Shown piece after piece: positions 59,626 through 63,736 of a stretch of 64,000 nucleotides of DNA. Source of the stretch: Porphyrobacter sp. HT-58-2. GTDB lineage: Bacteria > Pseudomonadota > Alphaproteobacteria > Sphingomonadales > Sphingomonadaceae. The DNA lies in assembly GCF_002952215.1 (NCBI RefSeq), contig NZ_CP022600.1, forward strand, positions 2,914,001 to 2,978,000, written 5' to 3'. A program made the position numbers and the translations under genes. The notes beneath the pieces were generated by a model. The model ran no database searches. It saw only the letters and a program-made list of their open reading frames with translations, and had not been told where the DNA came from. Each line of letters begins with the position of its first letter. The first letter of the stretch is position 1.

Positions 59626-60270
59626 TTACCAGCGCACCAGCGGCGGCACGATGACACGGCCCAGGCCCGCCATCAGCAGCACGACGCCGCTATGCCAGAT
59701 CCCGATATGGACAATGTCATTATCCGCGCAATGCAGCGAGAAGGCAAAGATACCGATGCTCCCGGCCGCAACGCCGCTGAGCAGGCCAGCCCGGTCAGGC
59801 GCGGTAGGAGCTCCCTTGCGCAGCCATATTGCCAGGATTGCCAGCACCAAAAGTGATGAACCTCCCCCGATCACCAGGCATTCTACCCCGTGCGCGATGC
59901 TTTCGCGCGCCAGAATGTCGCTCCCGCCGCCTAGCCCGACAATGATCGCTGCTGCCGGCAATAAACCCGCCATCGTCGCTGCCCAAAGCCAGCCACTATG
60001 ATCATTGCCCACCTGAGGGCGGCTCATCACGATGACTGTGACCGCCGCTGCCATGCCCAGCACCAGAAACAGGCCGGCTGCAATGAGATGGACAGGATCA
60101 AACTGTCCAGCCAGCAAATCGGCGCGCATGCCGAATACGGCGACCACCGCCAGCGTCGTTAACGCGCCGCCTGCCACGGCAAGGCCCAACCCTCTTGCAA
60201 AGCGCAAGGGCTTCACAGGCTGGAGATCGCCGACCAGACTGGCAATCAAGGCATCATTTTCTGGGGTCAT
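59626..60270 (-). CDS. nrsF: NrsF-type anti-sigma factor (DUF1109)
   Basis: 214 residues, six hydrophobic helices. DUF1109 membrane proteins hold SigF inactive. Two cysteines are placed at 131 (HGVECLVIG) and 181 (FSLHCADND), matching the pair I recall as needed for metal response in Caulobacter NrsF. The gene follows sigF by three bases. Metal or oxidant stress on the cysteines would release SigF. It ends the bufferin operon. Confidence 0.88.
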   Translation of the reverse strand: MTPENDALIASLVGDLQPVKPLRFARGLGLAVAGGALTTLAVVAVFGMRADLLAGQFDPVHLIAAGLFLVLGMAAAVTVIVMSRPQVGNDHSGWLWAATMAGLLPAAAIIVGLGGGSDILARESIAHGVECLVIGGGSSLLVLAILAIWLRKGAPTAPDRAGLLSGVAAGSIGIFAFSLHCADNDIVHIGIWHSGVVLLMAGLGRVIVPPLVRW

Positions 60271-60273
60271 GTG

Positions 60274-60798
60274 TCAGGCTTTCTCGACCGTGTGGGCCAG
60301 CTTTCTGAGGCCGCGGTGAATATTGACTTTGACGAGGGATTGGCTTTGCCCGGTCGCCTCGGCTGCTTCGGCAATGCTGAGCCCTTCGATCTTGACCAGC
60401 GCAATGGCGCGGGCCTGTGCATCCGGCAAGATGCCAAGCAGCCGATCAAGGCTGATCCGCGCGGCAATCGCGGGTTCTTCGTCCAGCCCTTCATAATCGG
60501 TCACCAGCTCGCATTCGTCGGCTCGGTACAAACGGCGCAAGTGATCGACCCAGCGATACCGCGCAATCGCTGCCAACCAGGGCAGGAACGGGCGGGTGGA
60601 ATCCCAGCTGGCCCGCTTGTTGTGCAGCGCCATCAGCGTCTCCTGCACCAGATCATCAAGCTGTGCTGGCGCAATCCGGCGGCTGTAATAGCGCCGCAGC
60701 CAGGCTTGGCATTCGGTAAGCAGCGTGGCGTAGGCTTGGCGATCGCCTTTTTGCGACATCGCCATCAATCGGGCGAGCGAGGCCTCGTCGGCTCTCAT
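60274..60798 (-). CDS. sigF: ECF sigma factor, SigF type
   Basis: 174 residues. Region 2 is seen in [18 protein letters not shown] and [20 protein letters not shown]; region 4 in [42 protein letters not shown]. No region 3, as expected for ECF factors. It is encoded before nrsF, its likely antagonist, and overlaps the doxX gene by four bases. The matching promoter GTAACC-N16-CGAA lies upstream of bufA1 in the same operon, which fits autoregulation. Confidence 0.9.
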
Positions 60799-61253
60799 TT
60801 GCCGCGCGCCTTCACCAGAGCCGCATCAAGGGCAAGCCGCCCGCCGCCCTGCGTGATCAGAATCAGCGTCAGTGCTGCCCACAGCGCGTGCACACTCCAC
60901 CAGGCATCGGGATAAACAAATATCTGGATGACCAGCGTCATCCCCAGCAAGGCGAGCGCTGAAAGCCGCGTGAACAGGCCGAAGACAAGCAGGATCGGAA
61001 AGACATGCTCCGACATCGTCGCTGTCACCGCTGCAATGTCGCTCGGCAGGGGAACGCCTGCATATTCCTCGGCGAACAGGAAGTAGGTGGTGTCGCTGAT
61101 GCTAAGCCAGCTGCCCTCTTCGACCTTGGTACGGGCCGAACGCCAGAAGATCCCGGCCAGCACAATGCGGGTCAGGAGCAGCGCAAGGCTTCGCAAGGCA
61201 ACACCGCTGACCCATGCAGCGGCACGATCATAGTGGGACAGAATGGCTTGCAC
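60795..61253 (-). CDS. DoxX-family membrane protein
   Basis: 152 residues with four predicted helices. It contains a conserved core around [22 protein letters not shown], the segment [20 protein letters not shown], and [20 protein letters not shown]. DoxX-like proteins often accompany MNIO (DUF692) clusters and are probably electron-transfer partners in the membrane. The start is 31 bases beyond the bufC stop. Confidence 0.87.
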
Positions 61254-61284
61254 GATATTTCCTTAATAGCTCGCAACACCGTGA

Positions 61285-62028
61285 TCACGCTGCAATCAGC
61301 GCGCCGGCTGTGATAATGGCAGCGAGCGACTGCATCATGGCATCGGCCTGCGCTGCTGCGTCATCGGGGCATTCGCGGCTCTGCCGGAGAAGGTTACCGA
61401 TGGTGACGGGATTTTCTGCGGCGGCCAGCACGTCTGCCATCAGCACGCTGGCAGGGGATACCAGCACATCGGCGTCGGGGCGGGCGATCAGAATGGCATC
61501 GGCATCGGCCACGCCGGGAACCTCTGCACCAATCACGCGCTGCACCAGCGGCGCAAACCGCCCGGCACAGGCCGCAGGATGGCGCTGCACCACGCAATCG
61601 AGCAAGGCTTCGGGCGCGAGGCCCGCGAGCTGTTCAAGCTTCAGCGGGACAGCATCGGCGGCGTGATAGGATGTAAGCCAGCACCATTCGAAGCGCGCCA
61701 TATCGGCAACCCCTGCGCTTTCGCCAGCATCGCTCAAGAACGCATCAAAGCCTGCACCAATCTGTCCCAGCGCCGCCGCAGTCCTGCCCGGCTGCACAAT
61801 GAACCGCCTCGATAGCGCGTTGAAAGATTCATGCCCCAGCATGTCCCGCGTGCGCGGAAATGTATCTTCCAGCGCCACCAGCCGGGCATGGGAAATGGTG
61901 TTGGCGTGCACTTTCATCCCCGCCAGCACGCGTTCGGGCAAACCGGCAAACAAGCCTTCTGGCAAATAGGCCGGGCCATGATCGAGCGCCTGCATCACAG
62001 CGCTCTGCCCGCCATCAAGCCAGCGCAT
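61285..62028 (-). CDS. bufC: BufC-type MNIO partner protein (DUF2063)
   Basis: 247 residues from MRWLDGGQ at 62028, overlapping bufB by 14 bases; a longer frame to 62115 lies wholly within bufB. The DUF2063 putative nucleic-acid-like domain fills the N-terminal half, with HARLVALEDTFPRTRDMLGHESF. A second domain fills the remainder. In studied systems this partner presents the peptide to the MNIO enzyme. Cysteines are present but no metal motif is clear. Confidence 0.88.
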   Translation of the reverse strand: MRWLDGGQSAVMQALDHGPAYLPEGLFAGLPERVLAGMKVHANTISHARLVALEDTFPRTRDMLGHESFNALSRRFIVQPGRTAAALGQIGAGFDAFLSDAGESAGVADMARFEWCWLTSYHAADAVPLKLEQLAGLAPEALLDCVVQRHPAACAGRFAPLVQRVIGAEVPGVADADAILIARPDADVLVSPASVLMADVLAAAENPVTIGNLLRQSRECPDDAAAQADAMMQSLAAIITAGALIAA

Positions 62029-62920
62029 GGGATCGTTCCTGCCGGGCCGCTGAGGCCGTGATGATCGCGCCTGCCCTAGCCGCTTCGCCGAGCAGAACAT
62101 CGAAGGCAGGCACATCCGTATCCCATTCGATCAGCACGGGGCGCGGGCCGGCACGTTGCACGAATCTCTCGAACAGTCGCCATGTCTCGCCTGACACGGG
62201 CGAGCCGTGATCATCGATCAGCAAACGCCCATGCGCGTGATCTTCGCTGGCATGACCTGCCAAGTGAACCTCGCCCACCAGCGCCGGATCAATCGCATCC
62301 AGCATGGCACCGGCATCAAGACCGAGATTGGCGGCGGAAACTTCGATATTGTTGATGTCGAGCAACAGCCCGCAACCGGTGCGGATGCACAGCGCATGGA
62401 GAAACTCCGCCTCGGACATCTCGTCGCCTGCAAAAGCAAGATAGCGCGAAGGGTTCTCGATCAGGATCGTGCGCGCAAGGCGATCCTGCACGCGGGCGAC
62501 TTGCCCTGCAAAATGATGGAGCGCGTCTTGGGTGTAGGGCAACGGCAACAGATCGGGATAACGATTGGAAGCGCTGCCGCTCCAGCTCAGGTGATCGGAA
62601 ACCATGGCCGGCGCATAGCGATCGCATAGCACGGCAAGCTGATCCAGCTCGTGCAGATTGACGCCATCGGCGCTGCCAAGTGACAAGCCGACCGAATGGA
62701 AGCTGAGCGGGACGCGTTCGGCAAAGGCGCTGAGCCAACGATGTGGCGGGCCACCTGCGCCAAAATAGTTTTGCGGATGAACTTCGAACCAAGCGGGAAT
62801 GTATCCCGCAGGGTGGATGCTGGCCGACACGGACTCAAGCGCCTCGGCATAATGCTGAGGTTTGAGGCCGACCCCTGCGAGGCGGGGGAGAGAGCGCGGG
62901 GTTGGCATATCAGCCAGCAT
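62015..62920 (-). CDS. bufB: BufB-type MNIO enzyme (DUF692, multinuclear iron oxidase)
   Basis: About 301 residues from MLADMPTPRS; an ATG four codons later is equally possible. The TIM-barrel of DUF692 enzymes carries the iron ligands in LSFHSVGLSLGS, VSDHLSWS, LIENPSRYL, LLDINNIEVSA, EVHLAGHA and LLIDDHGSPV, which supply the histidines, glutamate, aspartates and asparagine of the metal site. Such enzymes oxidise cysteine residues in a substrate peptide. The gene starts 19 bases after bufA1. Confidence 0.92.
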   Translation of the reverse strand: MLADMPTPRSLPRLAGVGLKPQHYAEALESVSASIHPAGYIPAWFEVHPQNYFGAGGPPHRWLSAFAERVPLSFHSVGLSLGSADGVNLHELDQLAVLCDRYAPAMVSDHLSWSGSASNRYPDLLPLPYTQDALHHFAGQVARVQDRLARTILIENPSRYLAFAGDEMSEAEFLHALCIRTGCGLLLDINNIEVSAANLGLDAGAMLDAIDPALVGEVHLAGHASEDHAHGRLLIDDHGSPVSGETWRLFERFVQRAGPRPVLIEWDTDVPAFDVLLGEAARAGAIITASAARQERSHALA

Positions 62921-62939
62921 CCGGGGCGACCCGAGGGCG

Positions 62940-63236
62940 TCAGGCCTTCGGGGGAACAGGCTTGGCATTGCCCGCCTTGGCGGTCAGCGATCCGCCCATC
63001 TTCACGCATTCGCCCTTGCCGACATATTTCCAGGCGTTGCCTTGATAATCGACCGTCGAGGTACCGGCGCAGCTTGTGCCGGGGCCGGCGGCGCAATCAT
63101 TCTTGCCCTTGAGCGATACGCCATAGCACTTTTCCTTGGCGCCCTTGTTCTGCGCAACGGCGGGGGATGCGGCGATCAGGGACGCGGCAGCGAGGCTGGC
63201 GAGCGATGCCGCAGCAATGGCGAGGGATGATTTCAT
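62940..63236 (-). CDS. bufA1: Bufferin-family RiPP metallophore precursor (BufA1, DUF2282)
   Basis: 98 residues from [10 protein letters not shown]; an ATG five codons earlier is possible. It has a long signal peptide up to SPAVAQ, unusual for a RiPP precursor but typical of bufferins. The mature part has exactly four cysteines at 37, 48, 56 and 77, in [19 protein letters not shown] and KGEC. In related proteins two are converted to heterocycles by MNIO and the mature peptide chelates copper in the periplasm. The whole maturation system follows it in the operon. Confidence 0.9.
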
Positions 63237-63646
63237 GACGATTCCTTTCACGTATCCTGGGTGGGCCTTGCTGGCTCACATGAACCCGTTCGACGCCGCG
63301 TGTGTGAAGGTTACACTTGCGGTCAAAACGCCGACCACGAAGTCTTCGCCAAGGGTCTCGTTTCGCGAATCTGTTTTTTGCAGCACAGGGAGGCGACCGC
63401 TTCGGGGCGCTTGCCGAATGGCAACTATGCGGCGGTGACGTGCCACAAGCGGTTCAAGACGCACGGCAGAGCCAATTCCGGCAAGCCTGTCCGCCGCCAG
63501 CCTCTAACATTACTGCCGTGATCAATGCGGCCTGTCACGACGCGGTTCATTTGTCCCGACCGAAATTCCCCATTGCCCCCGCACCAGGGAGCCTCACTTG
63601 GAACCAGCCGGAACACCGATAAATTAGGTCGCCAATCATGGATGTG
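63237..63646. other. Intergenic region upstream of bufA1
   Basis: 410 bases between bufA1 and a tRNA gene. It contains the SigF promoter (63289-63314). Beyond it, 63320-63640 shows no convincing coding frame or RNA; it is less GC-rich than the surrounding genes. Confidence 0.6.
63289..63314 (-). promoter_or_regulatory. SigF-type promoter of the bufferin operon
   Basis: On the minus strand GTAACC, a 16-base spacer and CGAA. This equals the pattern I recall for Caulobacter SigF promoters (GTAACC-N16-CGAA). It ends 53 bases before the bufA1 start, a sensible distance for a leader. The sigF gene is in the same operon, so this predicts autoregulation. Confidence 0.8.
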
Positions 63647-63736
63647 TGGCGGAGAGGGTGGGATTCGAACCCACGTTACCGTTGCCGGTAAACCGCATTT
63701 CGAGTGCGGCGCATTCGACCACTCTGCCACCTCTCC
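63647..63736 (-). tRNA. tRNA-Ser (anticodon CGA)
   Basis: Minus-strand gene of 90 bases including an encoded CCA. The acceptor stem pairs GGAGAGG with CCTCTCC, followed by discriminator G. The anticodon loop contains CGA within CTCGAAA, and a long variable arm (ttaccggcaacggtaa) marks a class II serine tRNA. The T loop is GTTCGAAT. It would read UCG codons. Confidence 0.95.

Follow-up and report, generated by a model that had tools for sequence, protein, structure and literature searches.

The window analysed here is a stretch of 64,000 nucleotides from Porphyrobacter sp. HT-58-2 (contig NZ_CP022600.1, positions 2,914,001 to 2,978,000). It contains a six-gene cluster, bufA-bufB-bufC-doxX-sigF-nrsF, which is a bufferin-1 (Buf1/DUF2282) cluster with an extracytoplasmic function (ECF) sigma factor and an NrsF anti-sigma factor. 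Bufferins are a recent family of copper-protection peptides. We propose, with a probability of roughly 0.8, that this metallophore operon is under self-amplifying sigma-F control from two nested promoters, P1 before bufA and P2 inside the coding sequence of bufC. The gene identities and both motifs were established in this analysis, and the features are, in the order of transcription:

63289..63314, minus strand: P1, sigma-F type promoter motif GTAACC-N16-CGAA, exact match, -10 end 53 nt from the bufA start
62940..63236, minus strand: bufA, Buf1 precursor of 98 amino acids, PF10048 (DUF2282) 83.5 bits
62015..62968, minus strand: bufB, MNIO maturase, PF05114 (MbnB_TglH_ChrH) 309.1 bits
61285..62028, minus strand: bufC, DUF2063 and RRE-like (RRE, recognition element of ribosomally synthesized and post-translationally modified peptides, RiPPs) partner protein of 247 amino acids, PF09836 41.8 bits
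61372..61397, minus strand: P2, second exact GTAACC-N16-CGAA, within bufC codons 211-219, -10 end 119 nt before the doxX GTG
60795..61253, minus strand: doxX family membrane protein, GTG start, PF07681 59.3 bits
60274..60798, minus strand: sigF, ECF sigma factor, Sigma70_r2 40.4 bits and Sigma70_r4_2 45.6 bits
59626..60270, minus strand: nrsF anti-sigma factor, six hydrophobic segments, PF06532 (NrsF) 143.8 bits

An earlier note on this DNA had described six minus-strand genes forming a complete bufferin operon with its own sigma/anti-sigma pair, and this description holds. All six open reading frames (ORFs) are present and tightly packed between the bufA start (63236) and the nrsF end (59626), and their Pfam matches, including the DUF2282, MNIO (PF05114), DUF2063 and NrsF (DUF1109) profiles, all exceed the curated cut-off. 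The upper end given in that note, 63314, is the first base of P1. There is an overlap of 14 nt between bufC and bufB, and one of 4 nt between the sigF ATG and the doxX stop; nrsF begins 3 nt past sigF. As a small correction, bufC starts at the ATG at 62028 (it was queried in the Pfam and NCBIfam runs as 61285-62025, with the start codon omitted), and the candidate starts of bufB are 62968, which overlaps bufA, and the in-frame ATGs at 62920 and 62908. Among the NCBIfam models, MNIO_BufB matches bufB over its cut-off (337.4 vs 310); the matches of bufA to the BufA2 model (34.9 vs 60), bufC to HvfC (30.8 vs 142), doxX to HvfX (49.9 vs 80) and nrsF to AntiSigF_NrsF (59.5 vs 300) are below theirs. 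The DUF2063/RRE partner and the DoxX protein of the Buf1 definition are both present, as judged by Pfam and by the fold of the BufC model, and the ECF sigma factor, classed here by its Pfam domains, adjoins a six-segment NrsF (DUF1109) with two conserved cysteines.

Gene order and the motif before bufA

Two samples of loci were compared. The first comprised the window and 80 loci retrieved for the similarity of their BufB. The exact order bufA-bufB-bufC-doxX-sigF-nrsF in one direction was found in 19 of them (window included) and, with two bufA genes, in 5 more; bufABC-doxX without sigF was found in 35, sigF-nrsF was divergent in 6 plus 1 with two bufA, and the 15 others were variant or incomplete. 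The second (order) sample was drawn by NrsF instead of BufB. Within the order Sphingomonadales, NrsF is present in 98 of 246 genomes, and 98 regions were fetched, the NrsF places G240:C48, G227:C23, G213:C60, G020:C5, G179:C26 and the window's own being left out. Its layouts were colinear, bufBC divergent from the doxX-sigF-nrsF strand (27 loci), or sigF-nrsF alone or with the buf genes elsewhere. The gene order, which the earlier note had proposed to compare, is common to many sphingomonads but differs from that of four Caulobacter/Phenylobacterium/Caulobacterales loci (L034, L035, L041, L042), where sigF-nrsF is divergent.

Forty distinct colinear sphingomonad operons, 26 from the first sample and 14 from the second, served for the conservation analysis; genus g12 and the Hyphomonadaceae were set aside. 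Two loci, L011 and L151, were dropped from the P2 count, as the final 600 nt of bufC are identical to those of L010 and L021, and L045 (a sigF-like match, no bufA match) stands outside the sphingomonad count. A wider colinear motif count, over 50 loci, omitted L013, L026 and L223, in which sigF or nrsF is missing; L013 and L026 are counted among the 40.

The motif GTAACC-N16-CGAA is the sigma-F promoter of C. crescentus, as described from 5' rapid amplification of cDNA ends and lacZ fusions and, for sigF, from earlier primer extension (PMC3511200). P1 tracks the presence of sigF: of the 78 first-sample loci with bufA (window included), 36 have a sigF match, and 31 of these have the motif before bufA at no more than one mismatch, vs 1 of the 42 without sigF. 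This one, L026, is cut by a contig end after doxX. The five misses have two mismatches (L044, L058, L082) or three (L060 and L072, with a sigF-like match but without nrsF). A P1-type match (GTAACC or GTAACA) lies within 1.3 kb before bufB in 39 of the 40 colinear operons, and the remaining one, L020, is too near a contig end.

A second motif within bufC

P2 was first noticed when the window was scanned for the motif; extending the scan to all sigF loci showed that most sphingomonad bufC genes carry it. It points at doxX-sigF-nrsF, has the same motif and the same 16-nt spacer as P1, and is read by the bufC frame as xGT AAC Cxx, four codons, xxC GAA. Exact P2 was found in 38 of the 40 operons (L013 and L026 included), and the other two (L014, L028) have one mismatch. 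When synonymous codons are drawn at random from the codon usage of each locus, 0.64 exact loci would be expected where P2 lies, and 0.68 over the whole of bufC. Before the Asn stands G, S, C or R, in each case coded NGT, and the residue before the Glu is any of 10 amino acids, with C as third base in 39 of 40. Since relatedness makes the sequences non-independent, third-base changes were also counted along a tree built from five concatenated proteins (total length 13.56 amino-acid substitutions per site). The four promoter-bearing codons underwent 0, 0, 1 and 0 third-base changes; the median of the 1060 columns is 13. At the amino-acid level, the residue before the Glu changed 22 times (with its 1 third-base change) and that before the Asn 9 times. 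Leaving aside columns where the window has Met or Trp, only eight have two or fewer third-base changes, and four of these are the P2 codons. By third-base conservation the P2 codons rank 2, 5, 12 and 15 of the 1151 codons of the six genes; the spacer codons are unremarkable. P2 is thus conserved at the nucleotide level beyond the constraint on the protein.

If P2 were merely a protein motif, bufC would need [G/S/C/R]-N-L...E and the DNA would follow. The Asn and Glu are indeed invariant in the 40 sequences and the Leu nearly so, as this explanation expects. However, none of the 30 minus-oriented bufC in the order sample has Asn at the corresponding position, and L057 alone has it (as AAT) among the 53 more distant bufC whose alignment includes a residue at this position. 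The third bases are moreover frozen where the residues vary most, and the 38 exact loci compare with the 0.64 expected from recoding, so that we find this explanation hardly credible. In the AlphaFold model of BufC, residues 211-219 form a short helix and a less confidently modelled loop before the last long helix (predicted local distance difference test, pLDDT, of 78 for the block), and this predicted helix-loop may tolerate residues imposed by the DNA.

The motif was also searched in bufC genes with other neighbours. In the order sample, bufC without sigF next in the same direction gave 0 of 42 exact matches and 1 of 42 with one mismatch, at a different site in bufC. The first sample gave, for such bufC, 0 of 52 exact matches (L026 set aside) and 9 of 52 with one mismatch, at another place. 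These nine (L055, L057, L062, L070, L074, L077, L078, L081, L083), which have C or T as the third base of the first element, come from eight loci with Mesorhizobium titles and, for L077, a Hyphomicrobiales metagenome-assembled genome; we read them as a shared lineage coincidence. Unlike the bufC of the window, that of the four Caulobacter/Phenylobacterium/Caulobacterales loci with divergent sigF-nrsF lacks the motif even when one mismatch is allowed. In the 50 colinear loci, a sigF stretch of the same length gave 0 matches and the reversed pattern 2 one-mismatch matches. Where sigF-nrsF units have no adjoining doxX, the motif lies just upstream in 26 (exact) and 10 (one mismatch) of 45 units, with 1 exact match in sigF and 1 one-mismatch match of the reversed pattern as controls.

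Several observations weigh against the proposed role of P2. It is absent at its place in nine colinear loci of genus g12 (L200, L203, L204, L208, L213, L215, L216, L218, L221), although L204 has an exact motif elsewhere in bufC, and it is absent in the two colinear Hyphomonadaceae loci (L050, L056). Of the 27 loci with bufBC divergent from doxX-sigF-nrsF, none has the motif within ~330 nt before doxX; 17 have an exact motif further upstream on the doxX strand. The top-ranked frozen codon (rank 1 of 1151) lies outside P2, at bufC codon 42, the Ala of KVHANTI (61903-61905), with one third base in 95% over the 40 operons. Furthermore, the motif is not rare genome-wide, with 14 sites (spacer 16-17) vs 19 for the reversed control; each of the 12 sites besides P1 and P2 falls, on either strand, in a frame that stays free of stops for 156 codons or more, a hint, though no proof, that they are coding. 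Finally, the promoter role of P2 is a prediction from motif conservation.

The gene order kept without P2 in genus g12 would fit a module with a single promoter and a single transcript, in which P2 is silent. A silent relic would be expected to decay, yet P2 has been kept over the whole depth of the tree, and we regard this possibility as very unlikely. It was the view of the earlier note that the cluster is a self-contained module in one transcript. The complete Buf1-type cluster with its sigma-F/NrsF pair bears this out in part, but the second conserved sigma-F motif in bufC should give doxX-sigF-nrsF a transcript of its own. P2 might instead serve another ECF sigma factor, or a sequence-specific regulator, rather than the SigF of this operon. 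The Caulobacter sigF promoter is described as partly sigF-independent (Kohler et al., PMC3511200), but P2 shares its motif and spacer with P1, and P1 follows sigF; such a use of P2 appears unlikely. Our reading of P2 is that it is probably an autoregulatory ECF promoter that overlies the coding region for a RiPP partner protein and has persisted in much of an order. It would dictate two or three BufC residues for the sake of the DNA, not of the protein, and would uncouple, within a single operon, expression of the sensor pair from metallophore output.

Proposed circuit and related systems

The activity of P1 and P2 as promoters, the metal signal and the chemistry of the peptide are what we infer from the above and from related systems. 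In the circuit proposed with two nested promoters, copper or a similar metal stress would be sensed by NrsF via its two conserved cysteines, as in Caulobacter, and sigma-F would be released. Sigma-F would then fire P1, giving precursor, maturase, partner protein, DoxX and more sigma-F and NrsF, and P2, giving DoxX, sigma-F and NrsF only. P2 would thereby free the feedback loop of the sensor pair from the 2 kb of preceding biosynthesis genes, and the outcome would be positive feedback through sigma-F with built-in damping through NrsF. BufB and BufC would turn the central cysteines of the precursor into thiooxazoles and the exported peptide would bind copper, as expected from the family (PMC12452194). 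In Caulobacter, sigma-F release by NrsF is described for chromium (PMC3511200), and copper is reported to induce the sigF regulon and a sigF mutant to be copper-sensitive (PMC8224329). Copper would be the signal here by analogy with Caulobacter only.

Among the closest known systems is sigF-nrsF of Caulobacter crescentus/vibrioides with the bufferin operon CC3254-CC3257, which has the same six gene families and the same promoter motif and is described as copper-induced (PMC8224329). The cysteines reported for its NrsF, 131 and 181 (PMC3511200), have numbers identical to those of the window NrsF, where Cys131 and Cys181 are each conserved in 129 of 132 NrsF ORFs. Sinorhizobium meliloti RpoE7-EcfR7 (ECF16) with SMb20527-SMb20530 likewise has DUF692/DUF2063 genes and GTAACA-type motifs; unlike in the window, its targets are divergent from rpoE7-ecfR7, and a separate motif precedes each of the two sides (PMC6180224). 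The Buf1 clusters of the MNIO landscape contain DUF2282, MNIO, DUF2063, DoxX and sigma/NrsF genes as in the window, the sigma and NrsF genes occurring in Buf1 and not Buf2 clusters (Antoine et al. 2025, PMC12452194). Because this content has been described, the operon alone belongs to a known kind, in agreement with the statement of the earlier note that the family is known. The Buf1 account of that paper, in its abstract, sections 14 and 18 and further passages, makes no mention of promoters or of an intragenic promoter. We found no earlier report of P2 in the literature on NrsF/sigma-F, bufferins/MNIO, ECF16/DUF1109 and intragenic promoters, although the founding bufferin paper could still mention one, and little literature was found on the control of bufferin clusters outside Caulobacter and Sinorhizobium.

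P2 makes the "operon with a built-in sensor" a testable two-transcript circuit, and would be a natural case of a promoter constraining both codon choice and protein sequence. It comes with built-in controls, namely bufC genes with other neighbours that lack it and one genus of the same gene order without it at this place, and synonymous recoding could cleanly separate promoter function from protein function.

Protein features and genomic context

As stated in the earlier note, the BufA precursor has cysteines at 37, 48, 56 and 77 (numbered from the ATG at 63236) and a Sec-type signal, judged here by hydropathy alone from the one hydrophobic segment at the N-terminus (residues 3-25). The four columns are nearly invariant, with Cys in 86, 86, 85 (one X) and 86 of the 86 bufA ORFs from the 80 fetched loci and the window. 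The MNIO metal-site residues ascribed to BufB are likewise in place. BufB matches PDB 3bww (E 5.5e-37), and the candidate ligands H91, H126, E171, D204, N206, H235, H239, D252 and H254 are kept in 79-82 of 83 sequences; this set is our own choice, the N/D/H equivalents of site 3 having been mapped from the 3bww alignment and the text on HvfB (PMC13419390). A single-sequence search of the PDB with BufC gave no match and a profile search found 3dee at E 0.064. The fold search was clearer: the AlphaFold model (mean pLDDT 91.4) matches 3dee (E 8e-06) and 8hi7_A, a chain of TglHI (E 1.7e-03), in Foldseek; small RRE proteins and the MbnABC complex (chain C) are weaker matches. The structure alignment comprised 38 of 39 prepared sequences, L011 being omitted.

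A Buf1 precursor with a lipobox (e.g. LAAC) was observed as second or only copy in L010 (5644-5982), L011, L012, L013, L014, L015, L023 and L147, as well as in the genus g12 loci L200, L203, L204, L208, L215, L216, L218 and L221. The lipobox regular expression matches 18 of 166 bufA ORFs, two of which (L060, L173) look spurious. These sequences suggest a membrane-anchored lipoprotein bufferin-1; lipoprotein signals are mentioned for Buf2 (Antoine et al. 2025, PMC12452194). With colinear order, no P2 at its place and a lipobox precursor in 8 of 9 loci, genus g12 is a natural comparison lineage.

In the 64-kb window, 8 sigma-F motif sites occur at no more than one mismatch vs a mean of 1.37 in shuffled sequences, and 0 of 100 shuffles reach 8. 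Extra exact motifs lie upstream of or beyond the operon in L010 and L011 (3771, 9637), L004 (8087), L015 (6441) and L013 (2200), and could possibly mark additional regulon members. Of the two Oxidored_molyb loci, L225 lacks the motif even when one mismatch is allowed, and L226 has two one-mismatch sites. A genome-wide sigma-F regulon drawn from the motif alone was rejected, given 14 sites vs 19 for the reversed pattern. A sigma-70 scan (2 vs 1.4 in shuffles) and a terminator scan (7 vs 4.2) were not used as evidence.

In the genome (3.28 Mb, single contig), DUF2282, MNIO and NrsF each have a single match. The closest BufB among the matches listed is that of Porphyrobacter sp. TH134 (Erythrobacteraceae, Sphingomonadales), with 89% identity. 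The next gene downstream of the operon, on the opposite strand, encodes a polysaccharide-export protein. Directly upstream of the operon, a tRNA-Ser(CGA) gene is located at 63647-63736 on the minus strand, the sole match of the Rfam scan.

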